A stretch of DNA of 34,602 nt, taken from Bacteroidota bacterium. Lineage in GTDB: Bacteria; Bacteroidota; Bacteroidia; Bacteroidales; FEN-979. Of the stretch, positions 1 through 25,713 are shown piece by piece. Position numbers and translations under genes: made by a program. The DNA lies in the NCBI GenBank assembly GCA_007280875.1, contig QYQJ01000155.1:1-34602 (forward strand), in the 5' to 3' direction. The notes beneath the pieces were generated by a model. That model was not told the DNA's origin. It did not search any database and saw nothing but the letters and a program-made list of their open reading frames with translations. Every line of letters starts with the position of its first letter. The stretch's first letter is position 1.

Positions 1-1
1 C

Positions 2-1045
2 CGACCCCTCCCCAACAAGGGAGGGGGGGCTGGAGTATCCGGCATCCGGCATCCGGCATTGTCACTGCGAGCGGAGCGAAGCAGCGGCATCCGGTTATCC
101 GATATCCTCGCCGGTAACAATTTCCTTTACGCGGGGAACCCCGCAACCACTCCCCTGTCTCAATTCGGTCTGATTAACCACTCATTTATCTCCTCTTCCT
201 GGCGCCTGGCAGGTGGCAGCCAGCAAATTGCCGACATCCTGGCGGAAGGAATACGGGCTCACGGCGGGGAGGTGCTGGCTAAAAAGAAAGTGGTTGGAAT
301 CCAAAAGAAAGGGGTACAATTCGATGTCATGACTGCTGACGGAGACCATTTTAAGTCCGGTCAGTTGATCTCAGACATTCACCCGGCAGTGACCCTGCAA
401 CTGCTGGAAGGGATTCCCGTCCAGAAGGCTTACCGGGAACGGATCAGTTCCCTTGAAAATTCCATCTCCGTATTCTCGGTATACCTCGGACTGAAACCCG
501 GCACTTTTCCGTTTCTCAATCACAATATATATCATCATACATCACCAAATGTCTGGACAGATACGAGATCCCAGTTTCTTTTTATGACCCCACCGGAGAA
601 GAGCCAGGGAACATTTGCCAATACGGCTATCGTGATGGCACCCATGCAGTTCAATGAGGTCAGGAAGTGGGAAAAGAGCGACTCGGGCGTTCGGGAGAAA
701 GCCTACTTTGTGTTCAAGGCGCGGAAAGCCAAGCAACTGCTGGAGGCTGTCTATCAGAAGTTCCCGGACCTGAAGGAAGCGATGATGACCATCGAGATTT
801 CTACGCCTCTTACCTGGCGCGATTATACCGGGTCACCGCAGGGATCCATGTACGGTATTGTGAAAGACGCCGCGAATCCTCAGAAAACCATCATATTCCC
901 GAAAACCAAGATCCACGGACTCTACCTCACCGGGCAGAGTATCAACCTCCATGGTGCGCTGGGTGTGACCATCGGGGCCGTGATGACCTGCGGGGAGATC
1001 CTGGGAATCCCTCGTGTGATGGAAACCATTAAACGAGCACTTTAA
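2..1045 (+). CDS. NAD(P)/FAD-dependent oxidoreductase (phytoene desaturase / retinol saturase-like), C-terminal portion; 5' part absent or interrupted by a repeat
   Basis: Translation from about nt 92 (RLSDILAGNNFLYAGNPATTPLSQFGLINHSFISSSWRLAGGSQQIADILAEGIRAHGGEVL ... GLYLTGQSINLHGALGVTIGAVMTCGEIL) resembles the C-terminal two thirds of CrtI-like oxidoreductases. No N-terminal GxGxxG. Frame is open to the window edge through the repeat at 37-85; the listed TTG start at 59 lies inside the repeat. Confidence 0.75.
   Translation, partial: RPLPNKGGGAGVSGIRHPALSLRAERSSGIRLSDILAGNNFLYAGNPATTPLSQFGLINHSFISSSWRLAGGSQQIADILAEGIRAHGGEVLAKKKVVGIQKKGVQFDVMTADGDHFKSGQLISDIHPAVTLQLLEGIPVQKAYRERISSLENSISVFSVYLGLKPGTFPFLNHNIYHHTSPNVWTDTRSQFLFMTPPEKSQGTFANTAIVMAPMQFNEVRKWEKSDSGVREKAYFVFKARKAKQLLEAVYQKFPDLKEAMMTIEISTPLTWRDYTGSPQGSMYGIVKDAANPQKTIIFPKTKIHGLYLTGQSINLHGALGVTIGAVMTCGEILGIPRVMETIKRAL
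5..26. repeat. Short perfect inverted repeat CCCCTCCC-N6-GGGAGGGG
   Basis: Read directly: cccctccc caacaa gggagggg (8-bp arms, 6-nt loop). Confidence 0.8.
37..59. repeat. Heptanucleotide tandem repeat (ATCCGGC)x3 + AT
   Basis: atccggc atccggc atccggc at read directly. Confidence 0.9.
56..85 (+). repeat. 30-nt dispersed repeat, copy 1 (GCATTGTCACTGCGAGCGGAGCGAAGCAGC)
   Basis: Perfect reverse complement of 17379-17408. Confidence 0.92.
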
Positions 1046-1079: not shown

Positions 1080-1087
1080 TATTTTTG
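1080..1087 (+). promoter_or_regulatory. Candidate Bacteroidota -7 element TAttTTTG upstream of the C45 gene
   Basis: tatttttg, 24 nt upstream of ATG 1112. Confidence 0.4.
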
Positions 1088-1111
1088 CTGCGCACTACCA
1101 ATCGCTGTTCA

Positions 1112-2815
1112 ATGTCTGACTACCGCCCGTTTTTCAGAAAGAAACGCTACTTCATCCCGGCAGTCTTAATTGTCATTAGCGGGATCCTGATTATCTGGTA
1201 TGCAATCGCAACATCGGTTTCCCCTCCGGAGGTTGCGGACCGCTCTGCCCTTGAATGGCCGGTTTCACAGCCCGATTCGGGATTTTATCTATGCAAAAAT
1301 AACTGGCTGAAACAGAGCAATTCAGGACTATGGGAACTCTACCTTCAGGGTGACCCGTTTGATCGTGGTGTGACCAATGGAAAACTTTGCCGGGAACTGA
1401 TCTTCAAGCAAGAGGAGGCCTTTGTTGGACAGATCAAGCAGTTGGTGCCATCCACCTTGTATCAGCGCTTTCTGAAATATTTTATCTACTGGTTTAACAG
1501 AGATCTTGATAAATACCTGATGGAGGAGTTCAAACGGGAAATTTACGGGATTTCCTTCTCAGCAAGCGATTCCTTCAATTTTATCGGCACACCGTACCAG
1601 CGGTTACTGAACTACCATTCTGCCCACGATATCGGTCATGCCCTGCAGGACCTGATGATGGTGGGTTGTACTTCCTTCGGGGTATGGGATGAATTCAGCC
1701 GTGATTCTTCCCTGATCATCGGCCGGAATTTTGATTTCTTCGTTGGGGATGCATTTGCCGAAAATAAAATTGTATGTTTTGAAAAGCCTGACAACGGTTT
1801 CGGATTTATGATGGTTACCTGGGGTGGGATGATTGGTGCAGTTTCCGGAATGAATGAACGAGGTATCACAGTGACTATCAATGCAGCCAAATCGGAGATC
1901 CCGCTTTCAGCCCGGACCCCGATCTCAATCCTGGCTCGTGAAATACTCCAGTACGCCACCTCCATTGATGATGCCTATCAGATTTCCTGTGCACGTGAGA
2001 CATTCGTATCAGAGTCGATCCTGATCGGGTCAGGAGATGAGAACCGCGCTGCCATCATTGAAAAGGCACCGTTCGGGATTGCTCTCGTGTACCCATCGAA
2101 ACACTATATCATTTGTGCAAATCACTTCCAGGACACAACCTTTTCCCAGGATCCTCTCAACAGGGAGAACATCCGTGATAATGCGTCTCTTTATCGGTTC
2201 TGTCGCACGACTCAGGAGATTACCAATCTGAAGCCGATGGATATTCAGTCAGCTGCCAGACTGCTCAGAGACCCGCAAGGCATCAATGGAACGGATATAG
2301 GGATGGGAAACGAAAAGGCTATCAATCAGCTGATTGCACATCATTCTGTCATTTTCAAGCCGGCAGAAAGACTTGTCTGGGTTTCCACTAACCCCTGGCA
2401 ACTAGGACCCTATGTCTGTTACAACCTGTCTGAAATTTTTTATACATTTGCACCGCTGCGACAGCGGGTTGAGATCACGGAGCAGGCCCGGACCATTCCA
2501 TCCGATCCATTTCTTGGTTCAGAGGATTATCAGCGGTTTCTTCGGTTCCGCGAAATGCGGTCGAACTTGATAATGAAGCTGCATGAGAACGAGGTATCCC
2601 TCCCGCCGGATTCGATGTTCCTTGAGGCTTTTCAGGCCACCAATCCCCTCTATTATGAGGTTTGGTCCCTTTCGGGCGATTACCTGTGTAAAACCCTGAA
2701 TCCGAGGGAGGCAATCGCCTGCTACAGAAAGGCCCTCTCCCTGGAGATCCCGCGCTGGGACGAAAAAGAACGGATCATTCGCAGCATTACACAGTGTAAC
2801 AATCAAATAAAGTAA
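1112..2815 (+). CDS. C45 family (Ntn-hydrolase) autoproteolytic acyltransferase/hydrolase, membrane anchored
   Basis: Candidate nucleophile Cys in MVGCTSFGVWDEFSRDSSLIIGRNFDF; N-terminal TM segment FIPAVLIVISGILIIWYAIA. ATG at 1112 preferred over the listed TTG at 1085. Confidence 0.75.
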   Translation: MSDYRPFFRKKRYFIPAVLIVISGILIIWYAIATSVSPPEVADRSALEWPVSQPDSGFYLCKNNWLKQSNSGLWELYLQGDPFDRGVTNGKLCRELIFKQEEAFVGQIKQLVPSTLYQRFLKYFIYWFNRDLDKYLMEEFKREIYGISFSASDSFNFIGTPYQRLLNYHSAHDIGHALQDLMMVGCTSFGVWDEFSRDSSLIIGRNFDFFVGDAFAENKIVCFEKPDNGFGFMMVTWGGMIGAVSGMNERGITVTINAAKSEIPLSARTPISILAREILQYATSIDDAYQISCARETFVSESILIGSGDENRAAIIEKAPFGIALVYPSKHYIICANHFQDTTFSQDPLNRENIRDNASLYRFCRTTQEITNLKPMDIQSAARLLRDPQGINGTDIGMGNEKAINQLIAHHSVIFKPAERLVWVSTNPWQLGPYVCYNLSEIFYTFAPLRQRVEITEQARTIPSDPFLGSEDYQRFLRFREMRSNLIMKLHENEVSLPPDSMFLEAFQATNPLYYEVWSLSGDYLCKTLNPREAIACYRKALSLEIPRWDEKERIIRSITQCNNQIK

Positions 2816-2822
2816 CCACTGA

Positions 2823-4088
2823 ATGAAATTCAAACTGATATATCCCCGCTGGGAGAAACTCGAAGGACAAACCACATTCAACCTGCCCCCGCACGGGCCT
2901 GTAGTCATGGCAGCCGACATTCCCGGTACTATCGAGATCGAGTTCACGGATGAGAACGTGGAAGACCTCGTTATAAACGATTCGCCCGATTTCGTTGGCA
3001 TCTCCATGATGCTCACCACCCAGGTGAAACGGGGCTGGTCCATTGCGGATCAGTACCGGAAACTAGGAAAAAAGGTCATTTTCGGAGGGATCTCCACCAT
3101 GTTGCATGCCGAAGAAACCCTGGAGCATGCCGATGCTATATTCCTCGGAGAGGTAGAAGGCAGGATGGCAGATATATTCGAAGATTTCCGCCGGAATGAG
3201 TTGAAGAAGGTTTATAACTTTATAGCCAGTCCTCCCGACATGAATCTGGTCGGTCCGGCCAACCGGGATATCCTGAAGAAGGACCATTATTACCACAAAG
3301 GATTCCGCATGGTTGACCTGTTCCATGCCTCCCGCGGCTGTATTTACGACTGCTACCCCTGTGCTGTGCGATACCTTGGAGGACGGGGATTTCGTCCGCG
3401 TCCACTGGACCGTGTAATAGAGGAACTGGAGCAGATTGACAACAACAGGCTTTTTATTGTAGATAACTCACTGGCGCTTGATACGCAATGGGAAAAGGAG
3501 CTCTTCCGGGCCATGATCCCCCTGAAAAAGAAATGGGTCAGCCACACCATAGAAGATAAAGAAGAGGTCCTGGATCTCGCAGCTCAGGCTGGGGCCTGGT
3601 ATGTCTATCAGGCTGTGTTCGATACATCCGACTACATCCGGAACCGGATCAAGCAGTATCATGATTACGGTATTGCCGTGGAGGGAACGATCCTGCTGGG
3701 GTTGGATAACCAGACTGAAGATGACATCAAGCGGCTGATCGACTTCTTGCTGGAGATCGACCTTGACCTGGCGGAATTCACGGTTCTGGCACCATTTCCG
3801 CATACCAAAGCCTATGCCGACCTGATCAAGCAAAACCGGATCTTCGATTACGACTGGGATCATTACAATGCCGGAAAGGTGGTTTACCATCCGAAGCATA
3901 TGCCGGCAGAGCGTTTGCAGGAGCTCTATCACTATGCCTGGGAGACCTTCTACCGGAATGAGCCGCAGACCATGAAGATGTTCAACCTGATCACCCGTGT
4001 CATCAACCGGGAGATCGAGGACGGCACTTACGCTCCCAGGAGGCGTGATCTGGTCGACGTGAGCTTTGGAAGAGAGGTAGGGGCATAG
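2823..4088 (+). CDS. B12-binding-domain type radical SAM protein
   Basis: CxxxCxxC motif in SRGCIYDCYPCAV; upstream GGISTMLHAEETLEHADAIFLGEVEGR resembles B12-binding-type radical SAM N-termini. Confidence 0.85.
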   Translation: MKFKLIYPRWEKLEGQTTFNLPPHGPVVMAADIPGTIEIEFTDENVEDLVINDSPDFVGISMMLTTQVKRGWSIADQYRKLGKKVIFGGISTMLHAEETLEHADAIFLGEVEGRMADIFEDFRRNELKKVYNFIASPPDMNLVGPANRDILKKDHYYHKGFRMVDLFHASRGCIYDCYPCAVRYLGGRGFRPRPLDRVIEELEQIDNNRLFIVDNSLALDTQWEKELFRAMIPLKKKWVSHTIEDKEEVLDLAAQAGAWYVYQAVFDTSDYIRNRIKQYHDYGIAVEGTILLGLDNQTEDDIKRLIDFLLEIDLDLAEFTVLAPFPHTKAYADLIKQNRIFDYDWDHYNAGKVVYHPKHMPAERLQELYHYAWETFYRNEPQTMKMFNLITRVINREIEDGTYAPRRRDLVDVSFGREVGA

Positions 4089-4186: not shown

Positions 4187-4573
4187 ATGGAAACCAATCC
4201 AGCATTTGACCACTACATGGATCGCTACTTCGACTTCCTGGGACAATGGGAAACGCCCTCCCGCTGCGGATTGAAAGTTGTACGAAGAAAAGACGGTAAA
4301 ACCCTGGTGATTGCCACAGAGATCTACCGGCAGAATCCGGGTACGCCGGTCACGGAATGGGTAGCTCCGCTGGCTACTCAGATCATGCATCACATCGTTG
4401 AACAGCCTGAAAACTATATTTTCATCGAGCATACCCCTGATCTGCGAAGCAAACTGACTTTCTACGGAGAGACTTTTGACCTGGTGGAGTTCGACTGGGA
4501 TGGAGGTAAGTTCATCAATCCAAAATGGACCCGACTTTCCAACGAAGAAGTTGATCAATTAATGGAAGAATGA
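4187..4573 (+). CDS. Conserved-looking hypothetical protein (128 aa)
   Basis: Intact ORF, ATG start, co-directional, tightly followed by the next CDS. Confidence 0.65.
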   Translation: METNPAFDHYMDRYFDFLGQWETPSRCGLKVVRRKDGKTLVIATEIYRQNPGTPVTEWVAPLATQIMHHIVEQPENYIFIEHTPDLRSKLTFYGETFDLVEFDWDGGKFINPKWTRLSNEEVDQLMEE

Positions 4574-4576
4574 TCA

Positions 4577-6970
4577 ATGAATTACTTCACTACTTTGTCC
4601 TTCGTGTCTTTGTTCCTTTGTGGTTTGTCTTTTTTCTTACTTTTTCCCAACCCCGGCTTATCTCAACCTATCCTTCGTCAGTCAATTAAAGGAATTGTTG
4701 TGGATCAGCAAACCCTCTCCCCTCTTCCCGGAGCTACCATCATCCTCCTGGGAAGCGATCCCCTGATCGGAACGGTTTCCGATTCAGAAGGACATTTCAT
4801 CCTGGAGCGGATCCCCATCGGGACTCACCGGATCCGGGTGACCTATATTGGCTATGCGCCTTACGAATCCACAGATATCATTGTCAGCACCGGCAAAGAG
4901 AGTGTCATTACAGTCTGCCTGAAGGAGATGGTGCTCACGGCCCAAGAAGTGGAGATCAAGGGGGACTACCAGAACTATGAACCCATTAACCGGATGGCGA
5001 CGGTAAGTGTCAGGAACTTCAGTGTGGACGAAACCTTCCGGTTTGCCGGGAGCTACAATGATCCGGGCCGCATGGTGCAGAATTTTGCCGGGGTTACTTC
5101 CGGTGTGGATAACCGGAACGATATCATTGTTCGCGGGAACAGTCCAATGGGATTGCAGTGGAGGCTGGATGATATGGAGATTCCAAATCCCAACCATTTT
5201 GCTGCGGTTGGTACTACCGGCGGCCCGGTTACCGTATTGAATAACAACTTGTTAACAAATTCCGATTTTTTTACCGGCGCCTTTCCGGCTCAGTACGGCA
5301 ACACCCTGGCCGGGATCTTTGACCTGCGGATGCGAAATGGGAACAGCGACCGGAGGGAGTACTGGTTCGAGATCGGCTGGAACGGACTGGAGTTCGGAAC
5401 AGAGGGACCCTTCTCAAAAAAATCCCCTGCCTCCTATCTCTTCTCCTATCGATATTCTCTTCTGGAGGTGGTCAGTTACATCGGAATTGATCTTGGGGTG
5501 ATTCCCCGGTACCAGGATCTGAACCTGAAAATCACAATGCCTACCAGAAAAGCAGGGACATTTTCCCTGACGGGGATGGGAGGTCTCAGCTACATCCAGT
5601 TGTTCGACAGCCGGAAGTCGCCCGACAAATGGATGTTCCCCGATTACGGCCAAGATCTGGCAAACGGGTCCAGTCTGGGGGTGCTCGGGCTGACCCACCA
5701 GATCCTGCTGACACCGAAAACACGCTGGAAAAATATGATCTACCTGGTTGGATCTCTTGTGTATACAAAGATCGATACGTTTTCCAATGTGGTCACTACA
5801 CCAGCGCCGTGGGCCGGAGAACGGTCGCAGGAGATCAAGGGCTCGGTCTCCTCTCAGATCTTTCACAAATTCTCTCCCCGGAACAGCCTGGACGCTGGAA
5901 TTTTTTACGATCAGTACTGGCTTTCCTATGCAGACAGCATGATGTGGAAAGGGGCTTTCCTTGTCAATACAGGAAGCCGAGAGCAGATGGGATTCCTGCG
6001 GGGGTATGCCCAGTGGAAACACAGTTTCTCCGACCGGTTCTCCATCACGACGGGACTGTTTGGTTCCCTGTTTACCCTCAACAACAACCAGGCACTGGAA
6101 CCGAGGATCGGGTTTGACTGGATCATTAACGACCGCCACAGCCTGAACTTCGGTACCGGTCTCTATTCCCAGATGCAACCAAGGGTAATCTATTTTATTT
6201 TGACCCATCATCCCGACGGGAGTATTTCACAACCTAATTTGTCGATGGACTTCACCCGCAGTTGGCAGTTGGCAGTGGGCTACAATTACTTGTTGACAGA
6301 GAATCTTCGTTTCAAGGTGGAGACATATTACCAATACCTGTATGATATTCCGGTTAAACGTTCCATTCCGCAGTATGCGTTGCTGAACCAGGGACATGAA
6401 TTCTTTCTGGACAGGCAGTATTCAGACAGCCTGATCAATCTGGGCTCAGGGGAGAATTGGGGGGTGGAGTTTACCTTTGAACGGTTTTTCAGGAAAAACT
6501 ACTATTTCCTTCTTACTTCCTCTCTATTCAACTCAACGTACCAGGGATACGATAAGGTTGTCAGAAACAGCGCCTTCAATGTCAACTATGTCCTGAATGC
6601 CGTGGGAGGCTATGAATTTGTAATCGGAAAACGGAAATGGGGGATCATGGCTTTCGGACTACGGGCAACCTGGGCTGGCGGAAACCCATACATCCCCTAT
6701 GATGTGGATGCCACTGTTGCTGCAGGTGAACCCATTCCCGACTGGAGGTTTGCCTACGATCCCCGCTATCCGGAATACAAACGCCTCTCGTTTCGTTTCG
6801 GCGTGAAAAGGAATTTGCCGAAGTACAACATTGAGTTTCTGTTGGACCTGCAGTACCGTACTAACTACACGAACATCGCCCTGCAGCGGATTGATCCGAA
6901 AACCGGGGATATCCACTATTATTTCACTATGGGTTTCTTCCCGATGGGGACTTGGAGGATTCAGTTTTAA
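4577..6970 (+). CDS. TonB-dependent receptor with N-terminal carboxypeptidase regulatory-like domain
   Basis: Signal peptide; IKGIVVDQQTLSPLPGATIILLGSDPLIGTVSDSEGHFILERIPIGTHRIRVTYIGYAPYES; plug region NDIIVRGNSPMGLQWRLDDMEIPNPNHF; C-terminal beta-barrel ending in F. Confidence 0.93.
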   Translation: MNYFTTLSFVSLFLCGLSFFLLFPNPGLSQPILRQSIKGIVVDQQTLSPLPGATIILLGSDPLIGTVSDSEGHFILERIPIGTHRIRVTYIGYAPYESTDIIVSTGKESVITVCLKEMVLTAQEVEIKGDYQNYEPINRMATVSVRNFSVDETFRFAGSYNDPGRMVQNFAGVTSGVDNRNDIIVRGNSPMGLQWRLDDMEIPNPNHFAAVGTTGGPVTVLNNNLLTNSDFFTGAFPAQYGNTLAGIFDLRMRNGNSDRREYWFEIGWNGLEFGTEGPFSKKSPASYLFSYRYSLLEVVSYIGIDLGVIPRYQDLNLKITMPTRKAGTFSLTGMGGLSYIQLFDSRKSPDKWMFPDYGQDLANGSSLGVLGLTHQILLTPKTRWKNMIYLVGSLVYTKIDTFSNVVTTPAPWAGERSQEIKGSVSSQIFHKFSPRNSLDAGIFYDQYWLSYADSMMWKGAFLVNTGSREQMGFLRGYAQWKHSFSDRFSITTGLFGSLFTLNNNQALEPRIGFDWIINDRHSLNFGTGLYSQMQPRVIYFILTHHPDGSISQPNLSMDFTRSWQLAVGYNYLLTENLRFKVETYYQYLYDIPVKRSIPQYALLNQGHEFFLDRQYSDSLINLGSGENWGVEFTFERFFRKNYYFLLTSSLFNSTYQGYDKVVRNSAFNVNYVLNAVGGYEFVIGKRKWGIMAFGLRATWAGGNPYIPYDVDATVAAGEPIPDWRFAYDPRYPEYKRLSFRFGVKRNLPKYNIEFLLDLQYRTNYTNIALQRIDPKTGDIHYYFTMGFFPMGTWRIQF
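6259..6279. repeat. Intragenic heptamer tract (CAGTTGG)x2 + CAGTGGG
   Basis: cagttgg cagttgg cagtggg inside the TonB receptor CDS; same unit as 8046 and 18221. Confidence 0.6.
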
Positions 6971-17422: not shown

Positions 17423-17450
17423 TTGAATCTTGAATCTTGAACCTTGAACC
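17423..17450. repeat. Heptanucleotide tandem repeat TTGAATC x2, TTGAACC x2
   Basis: Read directly; the fourth unit contains the TTG start of the next ORF. Confidence 0.9.
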
Positions 17451-18247
17451 TAATCGTCTCTCCGCCCGGACCAGCTTATTTTAATGTTACAGACCTGGCC
17501 CGTCACAACATCACAAAACCAACTGATCCTGAACTGGCTGCGCAACAGCATCTCACCCTGGTCAAAACCCTGGAGCAGACCGGATGCGGGGTGATCTACC
17601 GGCCCGAACTTCCCGGGCATCCTAATTCTGTTTTTACGAAAGATCCCATCGTTTGTACTCCACGAGGATATATTATTCTCCGGATGGGACTCCCTTCCAG
17701 GATGGGTGAAGAGCTTTGGATGGCTGAATTCCTGGATAAAGCTGGGATACCCTGTATCGGAAGCATCAGACCACCCGGGACGGTGGAGGGGGGGGATGTC
17801 ATTCTGGCCGGGAAGATCGCATTCCTCGGTCGATCTACACGGACCAATCGTGCTGGTGTCCGGCAAATCGGGGATCTTCTGGAAAAGGTTGGTTTTGAGA
17901 TCAGAACGGCTGCAGTCCCCGCTCCTTTTCTCCACGTCGGAGGAGCCGTCTCCCTGGTTTCCCCTGACACCCTCCTCTGTGTCAAAGGTCTTTTCCCGGA
18001 TAGCTTTTTGGATGGATTTCAGCGAATTGAAGTTCCCAATACCGGTTTTATCAATGGAAATGTAATTTCCGCCGGCAACCGATCCGTGGTGGCCGAACTC
18101 TCCAACCAGCCGGCTATTGAAGCCCTGAGGCGACATCAGTACAGTGTTTACCCGGTCGATTTATCCGAATTTGTCAAAGGAACCGGCGGGCCCAGTTGCC
18201 TGATTCTGGAAGTAAAATACCAGTTGGCAATAGGCAGTTGGCAGTAG
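17444..18247 (+). CDS. Dimethylarginine dimethylaminohydrolase / arginine deiminase-like (amidinotransferase superfamily)
   Basis: TVEGGDVILAGKIAFLGRSTRTN, FLHVGGAVSLVS, KGTGGPSCLILEV (Glu/Asp, His and Cys motifs). Confidence 0.85.
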   Translation: MNLIVSPPGPAYFNVTDLARHNITKPTDPELAAQQHLTLVKTLEQTGCGVIYRPELPGHPNSVFTKDPIVCTPRGYIILRMGLPSRMGEELWMAEFLDKAGIPCIGSIRPPGTVEGGDVILAGKIAFLGRSTRTNRAGVRQIGDLLEKVGFEIRTAAVPAPFLHVGGAVSLVSPDTLLCVKGLFPDSFLDGFQRIEVPNTGFINGNVISAGNRSVVAELSNQPAIEALRRHQYSVYPVDLSEFVKGTGGPSCLILEVKYQLAIGSWQ

Positions 18248-18310: not shown

Positions 18311-18318
18311 TACCTTTG
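18311..18318 (+). promoter_or_regulatory. TAccTTTG -7 element upstream of the acyltransferase operon
   Basis: tacctttg, 19 nt before ATG 18338. Confidence 0.45.
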
Positions 18319-18337: not shown

Positions 18338-19222
18338 ATGCGTCTCTCTTTAAGACTGATGATCTGGTTTTTAACCGTCCTCCCTTTTAGTTTCTTTTAC
18401 CGTATATCTACGTTTGTTTACTTTATGATGTATTACATTCTGGGATACAGAAAAGAGGTAGTGTGTAACAACTTACGTAAGGCATTCCCTGAAAAATCGG
18501 AAATTGAACTCAAGTATATCAAAAAAGAATTCTACAAGCACCTGGCTGATTACCTGGTAGAGGCAGTAGCAAATTTCCATATGAATGTCAGCGATTTCGA
18601 CGCCCGGTACAAGTTGACCAATACGGAGCTGCTGGACCACTATGCCAGGGATGGAATCAATGTCATTCTGGCCCCCGGCCATTACGGCAACTGGGAGTGG
18701 GTCTCTTACCTGGTGCTGAAGATCAACTTTACCTGCGTGGCCATTTATAAAAAACAATCCAATAAATTCGTGGATGAACTGATCCTTCATTCCAGGGGTA
18801 AATACGGACTCCTTCTCTACCAGTATCATGACGCTTATAAATACCTGCTCAGCGCACCGGAAACAGCACCACTCTGTCTTTATTTTGCTGCCGATCAACG
18901 CCCTGCAAGAAAAGCAAAGGTTCCCTGGGTGACCTTTTTAAATCAGCCTACAGCAGCTTTTCGTGGTCTCGAAAACCTGCACGCTAAAACGCAGGGAATC
19001 GTTCTCTACGTGCATATCCGGAAAGTTAAGCGAGGCTTTTATGAAGTGGAATTCCGTCCCCTGAATAAGCTCGGAGAGGTTGATATGGTTCCTGATCTCA
19101 TCGAACGTTATTTTGAAGCGCTGGAGAATAACATCCGGGAGGATCCCCGTTACTACCTCTGGTCACATAATCGCTGGAAGTTTACCCCACCTGTTGATGT
19201 GAAATCAATCCATGAAGCATAA
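18338..19222 (+). CDS. LpxL/HtrB-like lysophospholipid/lipid A acyltransferase family protein
   Basis: GINVILAPGHYGNWEWVSYLVLKINFTCVAIYKKQSNKFVDELILHSRGKYG; PLCLYFAADQRPARKAKVPWVTFLNQPTAAFRGLENLHAKTQGIVLYVHI. Confidence 0.9.
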   Translation: MRLSLRLMIWFLTVLPFSFFYRISTFVYFMMYYILGYRKEVVCNNLRKAFPEKSEIELKYIKKEFYKHLADYLVEAVANFHMNVSDFDARYKLTNTELLDHYARDGINVILAPGHYGNWEWVSYLVLKINFTCVAIYKKQSNKFVDELILHSRGKYGLLLYQYHDAYKYLLSAPETAPLCLYFAADQRPARKAKVPWVTFLNQPTAAFRGLENLHAKTQGIVLYVHIRKVKRGFYEVEFRPLNKLGEVDMVPDLIERYFEALENNIREDPRYYLWSHNRWKFTPPVDVKSIHEA

Positions 19223-20315
19223 ACCGCATCGATATTCCTTACCACCCCGCTGGATTGTAAAGACCCTGGCAGGTTTCAGATCTGGTCTTTTTACCCTGCA
19301 CCAGAGGCTTTTTCCCGGCAGCATTGTCGTGTATGAGAAATTCCAGTACCTCTATCTGCTTCCCTGCCTCCATGTAGCCGCTGAACTCAATGTGGCCGGA
19401 TTGCTCCAAAACGGAAACAGAAAGGTGGAGAATCTGGCCAGTGAAACAAATGTAAATGCGGAAAGCCTTTACCGGGTTCTGCGTGTGCTTGCTTCCCATG
19501 GGATATTCAGGGAGCATGCTGACAAAACCTTTTCCAATACCCGCCTGTCCAGGCCCCTGATGGAGGGGCCCGAATCACTCCGGCACATGCTTCGGCATCA
19601 CCTGGGCCCACTGAACTGGGCTATCACAGGAGAGCTTCTGGAAAGCGTGCGTACCGGGACAGATGGATTTAACCGGAAGTACGGAAAAAACATCTACGAT
19701 TACCTGGCCGGTGATTCCGACAGGTTTGCCCTTTTTGATCAATCCATGGCGGATCTCTCCTCTCTGGGGTTGGCTCCGCTGCTTCAGGCCTATTCCTTTT
19801 CACAGTTCACAACACTGGCGGACATCGGTGGCGGGGATGGAGCTTCGCTCATCAGCATCCTCCAGATCTGCCCGAATCTCCGGGGCATCCTGTTTGATCT
19901 TCCAGCCGCCCTGACAAAGGCAAAAGAGATGCTCCACCACACGGATTTAGAAAACCTCATCACCCTAATAGAGGGGAATTTCATGGAAGCAGTTCCCTCC
20001 GGTGCAGATGGATACCTGCTGAAACATGTACTGCACAACTGGGATGATCAGCACTGCGTTGCAATCCTCTCGAACATCCGGAAGGTAATGCCGGAACAGG
20101 GAAAGCTCATCGTTGTGGAGATGCTCGTACCTCCGGGAAACAGAGCTTCCGTTGCCAAAATGATCGACATCCAGATGCTCACATCCATGCCCGGTGGAAG
20201 AGAGCGTACAAGGCAGGAATTCGAAATCCTGTTCTCCCGGGCTGGCCTTTCCCTGACTGGAGAATATCCTACGGTTGCCCCATTTTCGGTGCTCGAAGCC
20301 GGGTGGAATCGTTAA
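19212..20315 (+). CDS. SAM-dependent O-methyltransferase (methyltransferase family 2, with dimerisation/winged-helix domain)
   Basis: LASETNVNAESLYRVLRVLASHGIFRE; LADIGGGDGASLISILQICPNLRGILFDLPAALTKAKE; LLKHVLHNWDDQHCVAILSNIRKVMPEQGKLIVVEML. Confidence 0.93.
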   Translation: MKHKPHRYSLPPRWIVKTLAGFRSGLFTLHQRLFPGSIVVYEKFQYLYLLPCLHVAAELNVAGLLQNGNRKVENLASETNVNAESLYRVLRVLASHGIFREHADKTFSNTRLSRPLMEGPESLRHMLRHHLGPLNWAITGELLESVRTGTDGFNRKYGKNIYDYLAGDSDRFALFDQSMADLSSLGLAPLLQAYSFSQFTTLADIGGGDGASLISILQICPNLRGILFDLPAALTKAKEMLHHTDLENLITLIEGNFMEAVPSGADGYLLKHVLHNWDDQHCVAILSNIRKVMPEQGKLIVVEMLVPPGNRASVAKMIDIQMLTSMPGGRERTRQEFEILFSRAGLSLTGEYPTVAPFSVLEAGWNR

Positions 20316-20325
20316 CTTTGCAACC

Positions 20326-21492
20326 ATGTCGAAATTCTTCGCTGCATTCCGGAAAGAGTGGATCCTCCTGATCCGGGACCTTCCCGGACTGGGAATTCTG
20401 TTTGTAATGCCGGTACTGTTGATCCTGGTGGTGACCCTGGCGCAGGAAAATGCCCTGAAAAGCCAGGTTGAAAAAAACAGTATTCTGATGTTCAGTCCTC
20501 CCGGATCCATTCTCGGCAGGCAGGTAAAGGCAGATGTCAGGGCCTCAGGCATGTACACGCTTGCCAAAGACTTTGTTAGCCTGGAAGAACTCCACCGTGC
20601 CATTCAGACAGGATCCGTTCCCCTTGGAATCGTAATTGCTCCGGGAGATTCGGCCATCACCCTGGTCATCGACCCCACCCTTCACCAGGCCTATAGAAAT
20701 TCCCTGATCATGGCCACCACCTTCATCCTGAAGGGCGCAGCCGGAAAGGTGCTGATGCAGCAGTTGTTCGCTGCCGGTCGACCGGCAGGCTCAATACCTG
20801 CACCTGAGGTGATGCTGAATAACCTTCCCCCGGTATACCAGGAACAAGCAGTCAAAGAACGTTCGTCCATCAAACCGACACCGGTACAGAATAACATCCC
20901 TGGCTTCATCCTCTTTGCCATGTTTTTTATCGTTATCCCTCTGTCTGGAAGCGTGATCAGTGAAAAGAACGAAGGGGCGTCGTTCCGGCTCCGGACGCTC
21001 CCCACCCCCCTGTGGATAATGCTGGGAGCCAAGGTCCTGTTGTTCCTTCTGGTCTGTATCATCCAGTTCCTGCTGATGTTACTGGTTGGATACTGCCTGC
21101 TGCACCTTGTGTTCGGATTTCCCGAACTGGAGATGGGATCCAGTTTTCCTGCTATGGCAGTGGCCACCGTGACGGCCGCACTCGGGGCCATCGGATTCGG
21201 CCTGCTGGTGGGAGCCGGTTCACGAACACATAACCAGGCCGCTCTGTTCGGGTCGGTGATGGTGGTGATACTCGGAGTCATCAGTGGTACCTTCCTCCCT
21301 ATTCACGTTATGCCTAAAATAATCCGGATCATCAGCGGTTTCTCTCCCATCCGCTGGGGAATTGACAACTACCTGGAACTCTTCATACGCGACGGAACCC
21401 TGCGGGATATTCTTCCCCGTTCACTCTGGTTGCTATTGTTTTTTATCTTTGCACTGCTAATCAGCCTGTTTATTTTTCAAAGACGGGATTAA
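20326..21492 (+). CDS. ABC-2 type transporter permease
   Basis: MSKFFAAFRKEWILLIRDLPGLGILFVMPVLLILVVTLAQ; C-terminal TM cluster with VMVVILGVISGTFLPIHVMPKIIRIISGFSPIRWGIDNYLELF. ATG 20326 preferred over the listed 20275. Confidence 0.88.
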   Translation: MSKFFAAFRKEWILLIRDLPGLGILFVMPVLLILVVTLAQENALKSQVEKNSILMFSPPGSILGRQVKADVRASGMYTLAKDFVSLEELHRAIQTGSVPLGIVIAPGDSAITLVIDPTLHQAYRNSLIMATTFILKGAAGKVLMQQLFAAGRPAGSIPAPEVMLNNLPPVYQEQAVKERSSIKPTPVQNNIPGFILFAMFFIVIPLSGSVISEKNEGASFRLRTLPTPLWIMLGAKVLLFLLVCIIQFLLMLLVGYCLLHLVFGFPELEMGSSFPAMAVATVTAALGAIGFGLLVGAGSRTHNQAALFGSVMVVILGVISGTFLPIHVMPKIIRIISGFSPIRWGIDNYLELFIRDGTLRDILPRSLWLLLFFIFALLISLFIFQRRD

Positions 21493-21504
21493 TGCCGTGA
21501 GATT

Positions 21505-21924
21505 ATGAAAGAGAAAGAGGGCTTTGTGGATTGTCCGGAGCAACAGATGATTGTCTATGTGGAGAAAGAAGATGGTCAGTACGGACCGATGCAAACCGGA
21601 TCCTACATCACAAAAAATTATATCGAGGATTATTTTCTGAAACGTAACAATTTGATTTCCAAATTGAAAGAGCAGGTTGATCGGGAGGAGATCAGCCCTG
21701 TGAAGTTATTTATGGTGCTGGAGGATCTGACCGTCAGCGAGCTCTCTGCCCGGACCCGCATTCCGTTCCGTAAGGTTAAAAAACACCTGCTCCCGGGACC
21801 TTTTAAAACCATCCCGAACACGTTACTTGAACACTATGCCGCTGTTTTCAACATCACCGTTGAGCAGCTCCTTGACGTTGATGCAGGTTACGAACAGAAG
21901 AACGATGAAGATGCAAGCAAATGA
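21505..21924 (+). CDS. Hypothetical protein with possible C-terminal HTH-like domain
   Basis: LEDLTVSELSARTRIPFRKVKKHLLPGPFKTIPNTLLEHYAAVFNITVEQLLDVD is HTH-like; 4-nt overlap with the next CDS. Confidence 0.55.
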   Translation: MKEKEGFVDCPEQQMIVYVEKEDGQYGPMQTGSYITKNYIEDYFLKRNNLISKLKEQVDREEISPVKLFMVLEDLTVSELSARTRIPFRKVKKHLLPGPFKTIPNTLLEHYAAVFNITVEQLLDVDAGYEQKNDEDASK

Positions 21925-22928
21925 CTACCATCCCTTTTAACCATAAGATGGGTGCCCACTGTGAATCGGGTACCGTCACCTCACTGCTCAACCACGCCGG
22001 ACTAACGATCTCAGAACCCATGGTGTTTGGCATTGCCAGCGGGATTTTTTTCGGCTACTTCCACAAACACAAATCCTTTCCCTTTCCCACCTTCATTGTC
22101 CGGAACCGTCCCGGTGAAATTCGGAAGAATATCGGGAAACAGCTGGGAATCAGGTTTCAAACTTTTTCCTTTCCCAGGGAGGAGTCCGGAATGGAGAAAC
22201 TGGACGAACTTCTTATCAGTGGGATACCGGTGGCTTGTCAGGTTGACTTTTTCTATCTGGATTATGTCCCGAGCTGGGAACGCGTCCACATCAATGTACA
22301 TTTCATGGTGGTTATCGGGAAAGAGGGATCTGACTACATCATCAGCGACAGCTATTTCCCCGGGCCGGTCCGGCTGCCGGAACATTCACTCCGTAAAGGA
22401 CGGTTTGCCGGTGGAACTATGTCACCGAAAGGATTCATCTTTTACCCAGCCCATGTTCCTTCGAGCTCAGACCTGCGGAAACCGATCCTCAAAGGAATCC
22501 GGAAGGCCTGTTTCAATATGCTCAGTATTCCGGTTCCTTTTATCGGGATCAAGGGGATCCGGCTCTTTGCCAAACGGGTAGCGGATTGGCCGAAGCTGGC
22601 CAGAGATACGGAGCACCTCTCCCATGAAGTGATGAAAATCAATATCCTCCTGGAAGACCAGGGAACAGGAGGTGCCGGATTCAGGTACATGTATGCCACG
22701 TTTCTGCAGCAGGCAGCCGATATCGTTGAACTACCGGAGTTGAAAGAGCGGTCGGCAGAGCTGATGGCCATTGGCGACGGCTGGCGGGAGATCTCGCTTT
22801 TTGCTGCCCGGATCGGCAAGAACCGGGATCTGGGAACTGCCCGTATGAAGGAGCTGGGCGACCTGATCATGGATCGTGCTGCCGTTGAAGAAAGATTCTT
22901 CAACGGATTGAAAAAGAGCGTAAAATAG
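21921..22928 (+). CDS. BtrH N-terminal-domain-like / DUF4872-like protein (C39-like fold)
   Basis: MGAHCESGTVTSLLNHAGLTISEPMVFGIASGIFFGYF; GIPVACQVDFFYLDYVPSWERVHINVHFMVVIGKEGSDYIISDSYFPGPVRLPEHSLRKGR. Confidence 0.82.
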   Translation: MTTIPFNHKMGAHCESGTVTSLLNHAGLTISEPMVFGIASGIFFGYFHKHKSFPFPTFIVRNRPGEIRKNIGKQLGIRFQTFSFPREESGMEKLDELLISGIPVACQVDFFYLDYVPSWERVHINVHFMVVIGKEGSDYIISDSYFPGPVRLPEHSLRKGRFAGGTMSPKGFIFYPAHVPSSSDLRKPILKGIRKACFNMLSIPVPFIGIKGIRLFAKRVADWPKLARDTEHLSHEVMKINILLEDQGTGGAGFRYMYATFLQQAADIVELPELKERSAELMAIGDGWREISLFAARIGKNRDLGTARMKELGDLIMDRAAVEERFFNGLKKSVK

Positions 22929-22937
22929 GAGAAAGAC

Positions 22938-23219
22938 ATGGCCATTGAACCGAGTGAAGAGCTGAAGATGGAGATCAAGAACCTGATTATGACCACCCTC
23001 AATATCACAGACGTGGATCCGAATGATATAGATGACACTGAACCGCTTTTTGGTGGTACCAATGCTCTTACGCTTGACTCTGTCGACGGCATTGAGATCA
23101 TCATGGCGTTGCAGCGACACTACAATGTCAGATTGAATGATCAGAACCTGGCACGACATATCATCCGGTCCATTCATACTATCGCGGAATTCGTTGCGCG
23201 GGAAAAAGCAGCTAATTGA
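22938..23219 (+). CDS. Acyl carrier protein
   Basis: 93 aa; phosphopantetheine-site-like TLDSVDGIEIIMALQRHYNVRL. Confidence 0.88.
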   Translation: MAIEPSEELKMEIKNLIMTTLNITDVDPNDIDDTEPLFGGTNALTLDSVDGIEIIMALQRHYNVRLNDQNLARHIIRSIHTIAEFVAREKAAN

Positions 23220-24304
23220 AAGACTCTTACCTCATCGCAGGGATGCGTTGCGGCCCCCTTATGCGTCTGTTATCCCGTAATCACATTGCCTGTACCCCGA
23301 GGAACCTGATCCGGATTGTGTTTTTGCTTCAGAGTTCCTGCTGGTCATCCCTCTTTTCACGTATCGAGCAGGCACGATTCGGCGCTGCACTGGCCAGAAC
23401 ACCAATTCCACTGGATCCGGTATTCATTGTCGGACACTGGCGTACAGGTTCCACCCTGCTGCATCAACTCCTGGTACAGGACCCTGAAATGACCGCTCCT
23501 ACCCTTTTTCAGGTCGCACTGCCGGAACATTTTCTGGTCTCCTATCGCTTTTACAAACCGCTTCTCACTTCCCTTATGGGCTCTACCCGGCCGATGGACA
23601 ATGTGAAGATCGGCATGAATGAACCCCAGGAAGATGAATATGCCTTTTTTCGGCTGACCACCCATTCTCCGCTGGAACACCTCATCTTTCCGCGGAAGCA
23701 AGAGTATTTTCTCAAAGAGGCCCCATTTCTTCCTTCCGGAGAAGACCTTACCCGGTGGGAATCCTGTATGACCGACTTTTTCAGAAAACTCCATTTCGCC
23801 TCGGGCCGGCGAATCGTATCCAAAAATCCATTCAATTCGTTTCGTATTCCCCAACTGATTAAACTTTTCCCCGAAGCCCGGTTTATTCATATTGTCCGCC
23901 ACCCCTTTGCGGTTGTCCCGTCAACCACGCATCTCTGGCGGGTGGTTCAGAAGCAAAATATCCTTAACCGGAATTCCTGCACCCCGGAGGCAGAAGAGAT
24001 CTCTCTTTTCCTTTTACAGATGATGGAGACCATTCAGGAAGAATTTCTCCAGCTGCCTTCCCATCGTCAAGCAGTAGTCCTGTATGAAGATCTGGAGCAA
24101 GATCCGGTGGGATGCCTGCAAACACTTTACGGCAGGCTTGAACTTCCGTTTTCAAATGCATTTGAAAGAAATTTATCCTGCTATCTGGCAACACTTGCTG
24201 GATATAGAAAAAATGTCTATTCACTTTCTGAGAATGAAAAAAAATTGATCGGTAGTATCATGTATCTGCAAATGGAACGTTATGGTTATACTGAATGTAG
24301 TTAA
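23216..24304 (+). CDS. Sulfotransferase family protein
   Basis: 5' PAPS loop-like FIVGHWRTGSTLLHQLL; 3'-phosphate-like ARFIHIVRHPFAVVPSTTHLWR. TTG start overlapping the ACP stop, or ATG at 23243. Confidence 0.88.
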   Translation: MKDSYLIAGMRCGPLMRLLSRNHIACTPRNLIRIVFLLQSSCWSSLFSRIEQARFGAALARTPIPLDPVFIVGHWRTGSTLLHQLLVQDPEMTAPTLFQVALPEHFLVSYRFYKPLLTSLMGSTRPMDNVKIGMNEPQEDEYAFFRLTTHSPLEHLIFPRKQEYFLKEAPFLPSGEDLTRWESCMTDFFRKLHFASGRRIVSKNPFNSFRIPQLIKLFPEARFIHIVRHPFAVVPSTTHLWRVVQKQNILNRNSCTPEAEEISLFLLQMMETIQEEFLQLPSHRQAVVLYEDLEQDPVGCLQTLYGRLELPFSNAFERNLSCYLATLAGYRKNVYSLSENEKKLIGSIMYLQMERYGYTECS

Positions 24305-24339: not shown

Positions 24340-25020
24340 ATGAATCGATATTCCCTTCTCATCATGACTTTTCTGATCTGCACTGGAATTGCTGCTGCTC
24401 AGAACGAGGGTGGACAACAGGCAGGTAACGTTGCAAAACCCAACCTGATACGCACCGGTTTTTATCTGAAATTGGGTCCTGTCATCCCCATGGGCTCTTT
24501 TGCATCGGATCAGACTATCATTGACCTGCCTCCTTTCGATCGCGATACAACCGTTTTCTCTGCTGCTCATATAGGTGGGAATTTAGGACTGGGGTATCTC
24601 ATCTACATCGGGCCCGGTGTGGCGAACAACTATCTGCGATTTGGAATTGACGCCACCTTTCTGGATGGATGGTTCGTAACATCCAAACCAACCCTCCCGT
24701 CCGGCTCCAGTAAAAAGGAGACCGAATTCTGGTATTATTTTATCGGACAAAAGTTCGGGCCTCTGATCACCATCAATCCGATTGATAAACTGATGATTGA
24801 CCTGAGTTACAAGTTGAACTTCAACGTCAGCTGGCACAACAGTGACTGGGGTTACCGCATCACCGGCCAGGAGTTGATGATGAACATCCGGTACCGGATC
24901 ATTCTGGTCGCATTCCAGTATAACTTTAGCACAATGAACTACAACGACTTTGACAACTCACGCCCGGATCACAGTATTGATATTACCAACTTCAGGATAC
25001 TGCTAGGATTTAAATTTTAG
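24340..25020 (+). CDS. Secreted/outer membrane beta-barrel-like hypothetical protein
   Basis: Signal peptide ending in AAAQ; alternating beta-strand pattern, C-terminal LLGFKF. Confidence 0.65.
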   Translation: MNRYSLLIMTFLICTGIAAAQNEGGQQAGNVAKPNLIRTGFYLKLGPVIPMGSFASDQTIIDLPPFDRDTTVFSAAHIGGNLGLGYLIYIGPGVANNYLRFGIDATFLDGWFVTSKPTLPSGSSKKETEFWYYFIGQKFGPLITINPIDKLMIDLSYKLNFNVSWHNSDWGYRITGQELMMNIRYRIILVAFQYNFSTMNYNDFDNSRPDHSIDITNFRILLGFKF

Positions 25021-25029
25021 CTGGAATAG

Positions 25030-25060
25030 TTGGAAAATAGAATAAGTCCATATACTTTTG
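25030..25060 (+). promoter_or_regulatory. Bacteroidota-type promoter TTG-N20-TActTTTG
   Basis: ttg 25030-25032 and tacttttg 25053-25060, before ATG 25102. Confidence 0.5.
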
Positions 25061-25101
25061 TTCACGTTTAAATTAGGAACATTAACCAAATCCAAAGACC
25101 T

Positions 25102-25713
25102 ATGAAACGAGTTATTTTAATGCTTGTTGTCGGCGTTTTTGTTGCCGCTGGTGGATCTCTCTTTGCCCAGAAAATCAAATCAGGGAGTTTCGCTGCACTG
25201 CAGGGTCAAACGGTCGTTAACCTGGAGTATGATTATTCCAACATGGCCGTTGGCAAATTTAAAAAAGAAGCTGATTACGTTGCAAAACGTACTGCTGATA
25301 TGAACAAAAAAGAGGCAGGAAGTGGCGATACCTGGGCGCAGGCCTGGGTGAATGACCGTTCTGCGAGATTTCATCCGATGTTCGAAAAGAACTTCAATGG
25401 AAATGCTGATAAATGCGGATTAACAGGAAAGGAAGCGGCCAGTGATGCAAAGTATACGCTGATCATCCGGACCATCTTCACTGAACCCGGCTTCAATGTG
25501 GGTGTAACGCGGCAAAATGCTTACATCAACATGCTGGTGGATCTGGTAGAGACAGCCGATCCCGGCAAAGTTCTCGGATCGATTGAGTATAAAAATGTGC
25601 AGAGTGTGAACATGATGGGGTACGACTTCGATACGGGCGGACGGATCCAGAGTTGTTACGATCGTGCCGGCGATAAAATTGCCAACACCATCTGTAAAGC
25701 CATTTCAAAGTAA
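25102..25713 (+). CDS. Secreted hypothetical protein (203 aa)
   Basis: Signal peptide MKRVILMLVVGVFVAAGGSLFAQ; intact ORF with its own promoter-like sequence. Confidence 0.65.
   Translation: MKRVILMLVVGVFVAAGGSLFAQKIKSGSFAALQGQTVVNLEYDYSNMAVGKFKKEADYVAKRTADMNKKEAGSGDTWAQAWVNDRSARFHPMFEKNFNGNADKCGLTGKEAASDAKYTLIIRTIFTEPGFNVGVTRQNAYINMLVDLVETADPGKVLGSIEYKNVQSVNMMGYDFDTGGRIQSCYDRAGDKIANTICKAISK

Follow-up and report, generated by a model that had tools for sequence, protein, structure and literature searches.

The locus described here lies on contig QYQJ01000155.1 of a Bacteroidota bacterium (GTDB lineage Bacteroidales; FEN-979, assembly GCA_007280875.1). The window analysed, 34,602 nucleotides long, is this entire contig (C131); the genome to which it belongs measures 3.03 Mb and is 88% complete. 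Positions 18338-24304 were occupied by seven tightly spaced open reading frames in the same direction, each of them open at the coordinates of the first-pass annotation, whose description of a compact, co-directional gene set was borne out, overlaps included. In gene order, their products displayed the Pfam domains Lip_A_acyltrans, Methyltransf_2 and ABC2_membrane_3, then no match (a 139-aa protein), BtrH_N with DUF4872, PP-binding and Sulfotransfer_3. They are referred to below as the LpxL-like acyltransferase, O-methyltransferase (OMT), permease, DarG, DarH, acyl carrier protein (ACP) and sulfotransferase (ST; see Table 1). The LpxL-like and OMT genes overlap by 11 bp, DarG and DarH through an ATGA at 21921, and the ACP and sulfotransferase genes through a TTGA at 23216, with 9 bp between DarH and ACP. 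Compared with a genome of the same genus, operon genes displayed dN/dS values of 0.06-0.13 where dS was computable; they are under purifying selection.

DarH exceeded the NCBIfam cut-off (Table 1), and its triad C14-H127-D143 was kept across 81 sequences. Its predicted structure (pLDDT 81, pTM 0.83) matched AziU3, CtaG and CcbD in Foldseek (E 1e-9 to 4e-7, 13-16% identity); a sequence search of the PDB with the DarH profile returned only AziU3/Azi29, at E 0.3. Titles of the structure entries mention the CtaG variants C11A, H128A and D144N and a bound carrier-protein domain for CcbD. CtaG was proposed to move a hydroxybenzoyl group between carrier proteins (PMC6772006), and BtrH is an ACP:aminoglycoside acyltransferase (PMC10318531). 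The accompanying ACP displayed D47-S48 in 38/38 sequences. Together, the triad, the fold of carrier-protein acyltransferases and the invariant ACP serine make the predicted transfer of an acyl group from the ACP by DarH well supported. The BtrH-like protein and its ACP had been proposed earlier as such a pair, subject to the ACP having a modifiable serine, and that serine is present. DarG kept its position before DarH; its model gave only a helix-turn-helix (HTH)-like domain (best E 0.023), and the protein is thus predicted to carry an XRE/SinR-like HTH domain and may be either a regulator or a structural partner of DarH.

The sulfotransferase closes the operon. Its 5' and 3' motifs for 3'-phosphoadenosine 5'-phosphosulfate (PAPS), GHWR.G at 73-78 and R228/S236, were kept in 29 orthologues, and conservation of Y5 and G9 in 29 orthologues makes its TTG start credible. 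The nearest solved sulfotransferases were 2z6v (E 1.3e-7), the OLS ST (4gox, E 7e-7) and the CurM ST (4gbm, E 2e-4). Sulfation by this enzyme is likely from its family and motifs, and PAPS supply is provided for by an adenosine 5'-phosphosulfate (APS) kinase encoded on contig C45 of the same genome.

DarH, ACP and sulfotransferase genes were adjacent in 26 of the 32 family genomes with enough flanking sequence, near-duplicate loci being counted once. An order-wide scan of 295 genomes yielded sulfotransferases of at least 39% identity, followed by a gap down to 34%. Close relatives in nine genomes of other families lay directly after DarH-ACP in every case (9/9; a tenth, G458, was left out), and the same was observed at five sister loci, giving 14/14 loci outside the family. 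At several of these, an orthologue of the B12 radical S-adenosylmethionine (SAM) gene at window 2823-4088 stood directly after the sulfotransferase. Judged by this distribution, the sulfotransferase is an ancient part of the window-type DarH module, and the first-pass annotation's own reservation, that these genes might not be conserved together, did not materialise.

The SAM-site residues of the OMT (D204, G206, G208, G210) were kept in 30 orthologues, and its nearest solved structures include CalO6, AlpH and MmcR. The permease, which probably starts at ATG 20326 rather than TTG 20275, was 30% identical to the permease on contig C66 and is a relative of the flexirubin-cluster permease; an ABC ATPase, which the first-pass annotation proposed to look for elsewhere, is present in the cluster, on C66. 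The LpxL-like protein reached a best NCBIfam score of 101.8 bits, under the equivalog cut-off of 248. Its gene adjoined the operon in 5/5 genomes of the window's genus and in no other family genome; this makes it, by distribution, a genus-level addition, and it was rejected as a core member since it is absent from the locus outside the genus. The lipidation step attributed to it earlier is weak for the same reason.

No PF00109 ketosynthase (KS) match was recorded on the window contig. The earlier remark that no ketosynthase lies nearby therefore holds for the window. Yet it does not hold as biology, because the window is a whole contig and two others from this genome, C66 and C70, carry the KS genes of the cluster. 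C66 encoded FlxB (394 bits, cut-off 340), KS, ACP, an LpxL-like acyltransferase, a TIGR04072 B12 radical SAM protein, dehydratase, DarG, DarH (NF053550, 403 bits, cut-off 300), ABC ATPase, ABC-2 permease, thioesterase, chain-length factor (CLF), ACP and KS. C70 encoded KS/CLF, deacetylase, flexirubin-type LolA2 and LolB2, thioesterase, two crotonases, KSIII, radical SAM proteins, FabF and MAT. In six long-contig family-mates, one collinear stretch corresponded to C66, then C70 reversed, the window's left end (FAD, C45, radical SAM, 128-aa protein and usually a TonB receptor) and finally the operon module (OMT, permease, DarG, DarH, ACP and, though not invariably, sulfotransferase). The chain-building enzymes, described as not visible, are thus on C66 and C70 and are collinear neighbours of the operon in relatives. 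The right end of C66 and an end of C70 carry two parts of one CLF gene; no exact contig-end overlap joining C66, C70 and the window was found, and the join rests on the split gene and synteny. In the window's genome, the left part and the operon lie 11 kb apart, with an efflux operon, DDAH and other genes in between. Outside the genus, the module was within a few kb of the rest of the cluster, and at locus L049 a KS and CLF lay directly upstream of OMT-DarG-DarH-ACP-ST.

Table 1. Features of the operon, of the window parts collinear with the cluster, and candidate promoter motifs (window coordinates).
Feature	Coordinates	Strand	Remarks
LpxL-like (Lip_A_acyltrans) acyltransferase	18338..19222	+	PF03279, E 7e-30; HX4E motif GHYGNWE
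SAM-dependent O-methyltransferase (Methyltransf_2 + dimerisation domain)	19212..20315	+	PF00891, E 3.9e-49
ABC-2 type permease	20326..21492	+	PF12698; no ATPase gene in operon
DarG-like 139-aa protein, predicted C-terminal HTH (XRE/SinR-like) fold	21505..21924	+	NF053545, 60.7 bits; directly upstream of DarH
DarH (BtrH_N + DUF4872), carrier-protein-dependent acyltransferase family	21921..22928	+	NF053550, 323.6 bits (cut-off 300)
ACP of the module, phosphopantetheine Ser48 in LDS	22938..23219	+	PF00550
PAPS-type sulfotransferase (Sulfotransfer_3)	23216..24304	+	PF13469, E 7.5e-32
CrtD/phytoene-desaturase-like FAD oxidoreductase	1..1045	+	TIGR02733; 5' end cut by contig end; collinear in relatives, in flexirubin clusters
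C45-family autoproteolytic acyltransferase/hydrolase	1085..2815	+	NF040521, 214 bits (cut-off 85); in flexirubin clusters
B12-binding radical SAM protein	2823..4088	+	PF02310 + PF04055; adjoins sulfotransferase in other families
128-aa conserved protein	4187..4573	+	No Pfam family; travels with radical SAM protein
TonB-dependent receptor-like protein	4577..6970	+	Collinear cluster member in most relatives
Secreted outer-membrane-like protein	24340..25020	+	Conserved neighbour; followed by FlxY in most relatives, not in the window's genome
TAnnTTTG, Bacteroidota-type -7 promoter-like motif	18311..18318	+	TACCTTTGC; 27 bp before first gene; weak
TAnnTTTG, second motif, possible internal promoter	20313..20320	+	TAACTTTGC; just before permease start

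Flexirubins are chemotaxonomic pigments of Bacteroidota. In the window's genome the NCBIfam flexirubin equivalogs FlxB, LolA2, LolB2 and DarH were over cut-off, and the order of the cluster's genes, compared for C66 and C70, matched that of flexirubin-type clusters in three genomes of other families (G266, G230, G392) from FlxA to C45. DarG flanked DarH at 30/30 flexirubin-type DarH loci, with ABC ATPase and DarG both present at 27/30; the same was observed on C66, where DarG (116 bits) was over the subfamily cut-off of 70. The likeness to resorcinol/aryl-polyene clusters that had been noticed at first thus reflects a locus belonging to a flexirubin-syntenic cluster. A branch of 1.59 changes/column, with support 100/100, split the window DarH clade from flexirubin and C66 DarH, in a tree used for topology only, whose group labels came from a score threshold and left some flexirubin rows mislabelled 'window_type'. 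Within the cluster, the operon represents a second DarG-DarH-ACP module, a deeply diverged copy of the pigment-linking one that has gained a sulfotransferase. A tandem duplicate DarG-DarH unit, strongly diverged, was also seen in the C66-type part at L057:8450-11342 (G031) and at L153 (G004).

The relatives' cluster was bounded by FlxA on the left (819 bits, cut-off 700) and FlxY on the right (708, cut-off 520), the latter just after the sulfotransferase and the outer-membrane-like protein; the distance between them, measured in three of the six long-contig relatives, was 50-56 kb. Work on Chitinophaga pinensis has characterised both FlxA, a tyrosine ammonia-lyase, and FlxY, a ligase (PMC3992019); each was over cut-off in 31/37 family genomes. 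The window's genome had neither at the two syntenic positions (C66/L009 upstream of 5032; window 25020-25102). Within its genus, G003 had both in place, and G000, G002, G004 and G005 were without both, flanking genes intact, so that a clean loss marks most of the genus, the window's genome included. G003 (row L036) sits among the loss genomes in the DarH tree; the pair was therefore lost repeatedly together, or lost and regained. From this loss it follows that the chain in such genomes is probably not started from tyrosine/4-coumarate; the OMT and sulfotransferase remain. The search for chain-building and resorcinol enzymes elsewhere, proposed at the outset, succeeded for KS (C66 and C70). It failed for DarB, which was above cut-off in 0/37 family genomes, and for DarA, of which no homologue was recorded in the clusters examined. 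A KSIII-like protein on C70 was tried as DarB and rejected (83 bits, cut-off 550). The cluster, then, works like a flexirubin cluster, yet with DarA and DarB missing it does not count as a member of that group.

Taken together, we consider it rather probable that the operon serves as the distal module, for acyl transfer and tailoring, of a ~50-kb flexirubin-type type-II polyketide cluster giving a sulfated product. The other two thirds of this cluster would be those on C66 and C70. Cluster membership, conservation and catalytic residues are seen in the sequences themselves, and the folds are predicted. KS/CLF pairs, ketoreductase, dehydratases, ACPs and radical SAM enzymes on C66 and C70 would build a polyene or modified fatty acyl chain, to be loaded onto the module ACP at Ser48. 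DarH would form an acyl-enzyme at Cys14 and pass the acyl group to an acceptor hydroxyl (or amine), in parallel to the DarH/DarE-type proteins presumed to join polyene and resorcinol in flexirubin and arcuflavin. The OMT may then cap one hydroxyl and the sulfotransferase sulfate another, and delivery of the product to the outer membrane would fall to the ABC-2 permease together with the ABC ATPase and Lol/RND parts of the cluster. From the enzyme families we infer the substrates, the order of these steps and the sulfated product.

Several observations weigh against this interpretation. Sulfation and acyl transfer are deduced from family membership, and the window DarG fell below both NCBIfam thresholds (60.7 bits for an equivalog cut-off of 170; 57.3 for a subfamily cut-off of 70). 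The C70-to-window join has a gap in the window's own genome and is taken from relatives. The sulfotransferase was missing from the locus in 6/32 family genomes, and the pathway therefore does not require it. No relative of it was found in 16 flexirubin producers, a result that speaks for the interpretation but comes from a search set without positive control.

A different role for the sulfotransferase, which we hold to be unlikely, is that it sulfonates a hydroxyl on the ACP-bound chain, in the manner of the CurM and OLS enzymes, to make it a leaving group; elimination, decarboxylation or ring closure would then give an unsaturated or cyclised product without sulfate. The overlap of the sulfotransferase and ACP genes would suit this role, as would the top fold match of DarH, AziU3, which we take to be tied to aziridine formation by sulfate elimination in azinomycin. 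Such a formation has been reported, as worded in a title cited in PMC9570651. Also among the closest solved relatives are two enzymes that sulfonate beta-hydroxyacyl chains to activate them, the OLS and CurM sulfotransferases (PMC3903477). However, the likeness to them is modest and no better than that to 2z6v, CtaG and CcbD are acyltransferases that match DarH nearly as well as AziU3, and thioesterases, present only on C66 and C70, are neither fused nor adjacent to the sulfotransferase. A bolder version has a slim chance of being correct: the DarH-ACP-ST set and the B12 radical SAM enzymes would act under anoxia on an ACP-bound polyene by chemistry that depends on sulfonation. With the sulfate departing in an elimination or ring closure, the flexirubin pathway would give rise to a class of outer-membrane lipid that is non-aromatic, cyclised or new in some other way.

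It is improbable that the cluster chiefly makes a ladderane-like or polyunsaturated hydrocarbon-like lipid by way of B12 radical SAM enzymes, with the module adding no more than its polar head. The C66 'lipid biosynthesis B12-binding/radical SAM' protein did exceed the TIGR04072 cut-off (406 bits, cut-off 360), and the cluster has five B12-type radical SAM proteins along with phytoene-desaturase-like FAD proteins, a combination also noted in Kuenenia and Desulfotalea clusters (PMC2649909). Yet the backbone order and curated equivalogs are those of flexirubin clusters, and no ladderanes were found in Desulfotalea despite similar genes (PMC2649909). The window's own radical SAM protein scored only 41 bits against TIGR04072.

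Synteny with C66 and C70 in relatives led us to reject, as very improbable, a stand-alone operon whose LpxL-like enzyme would lipidate an acceptor, the chain coming from ordinary metabolism. The LpxL/OMT overlap, its retention in the 5/5 genus genomes and the 11 kb of unrelated genes between operon and cluster would fit such an operon. They are countered by the absence of LpxL outside the genus, where the module is close to the cluster, and by the KS and CLF of L049. That the cluster makes ordinary flexirubin, DarH coupling a polyene acid with a dialkylresorcinol, is hardly credible and was rejected: synteny and equivalogs agree with it, but true DarB was found in 0/37 family genomes and DarA in none of the clusters examined, and FlxA and FlxY are missing in the window's genome.

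TAnnTTTG motifs were enriched in the window (17 observed versus ~7 expected), but the one at 18311 is weak because no -33 partner was found for it. Just upstream of the operon (17444-18247) lies a DDAH-like (dimethylargininase) gene; of the four other genus members checked, three kept it in this place. GC-rich repeat-like sequence forms the right end of C66 and the left end of the window. On C66 this end falls within the CLF gene, into which a small repeat may have inserted. Inside the lipid cluster, 6/6 relatives conserved a protein that has a haem-binding domain and, at its N-terminus, a signal-like stretch (L010:13299-13670). The LpxL-like acyltransferase and the TIGR04072 protein, separate genes in the window's genome, were fused into 760-780 aa proteins in G012 (L062:9250-11577, the only one in which the domains were checked), G008, G019, G027 and G031, which suggests that both act on the same lipid. 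Public records of metagenome-assembled genomes titled Alphaproteobacteria and Draconibacterium orientale carry the family's locus (L042, SACF01000019.1; L045, DYSO01000075.1), and these names look wrong. Lac Pavin and an isolate name of 750-m Black Sea type also occur among the record titles for these Bacteroidales.

These uncultivated Bacteroidales thus possess a flexirubin-like cluster without resorcinol genes and rich in B12 radical SAM enzymes. Its second DarH module includes a sulfotransferase that several families of the order have conserved. Should our interpretation be correct, sulfated polyene lipids of an unrecorded class are to be expected, a sulfated relative of flexirubin that appears not to have been described before. 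Titles and abstracts yielded no published link of a sulfotransferase to a flexirubin-type cluster, and no paper containing both 'flexirubin' and 'sulfotransferase' was found in the literature searched. On the same condition, the cluster would offer a natural test of DarG and DarH roles. It would also reveal a lineage in which the two aromatic-starter enzymes were lost jointly while the rest was kept, so that the starter question becomes directly testable.

Compared with known systems, DarH shares its predicted BtrH_N fold and Cys-His-Asp triad with CtaG (closthioamide), CcbD (celesticetin) and AziU3, and the 16-residue His-Asp spacing is identical in CtaG (H128-D144) and the window DarH (H127-D143). 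OLS and CurM likewise display a sulfotransferase beside an ACP, with similarity over the 3' PAPS region; here it is not fused to a polyketide synthase and has no adjacent thioesterase. Ladderane-associated clusters, as described for Kuenenia and Desulfotalea, have in common with the present one TIGR04072, multiple FabF-like proteins, phytoene-desaturase-like FAD proteins and a phenylacetate-CoA-ligase-like AMP ligase, and differ in backbone order. The Azoarcus sp. BH72 dar cluster (arcuflavin) is composed of darD, darE (BtrH-like), darF (ABC ATPase), darI (permease) and darC (ACP), among others (PMC3949708). It shows, as here, a BtrH-like protein with a small partner, an ABC permease and an ACP; yet it includes darA and darB, and its published list has no sulfotransferase or O-methyltransferase. 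With flexirubin clusters of the Flavobacterium johnsoniae/Chitinophaga pinensis type, the order in common, as seen in the flexirubin-type clusters examined, runs FlxA, FlxB, KS, ACP, acyltransferase, dehydratase, DarG, DarH, ABC ATPase, ABC-2 permease, thioesterase, CLF, ACP, KS, CLF, deacetylase, LolA, LolB, dehydratase, glycosyltransferase, RND, FAD and C45, with FlxY last in relatives. In contrast to these, the present cluster has five B12 radical SAM enzymes and a second fatty acid synthase-like set inserted, and a second DarG-DarH-ACP module with sulfotransferase and O-methyltransferase, without DarA/DarB.

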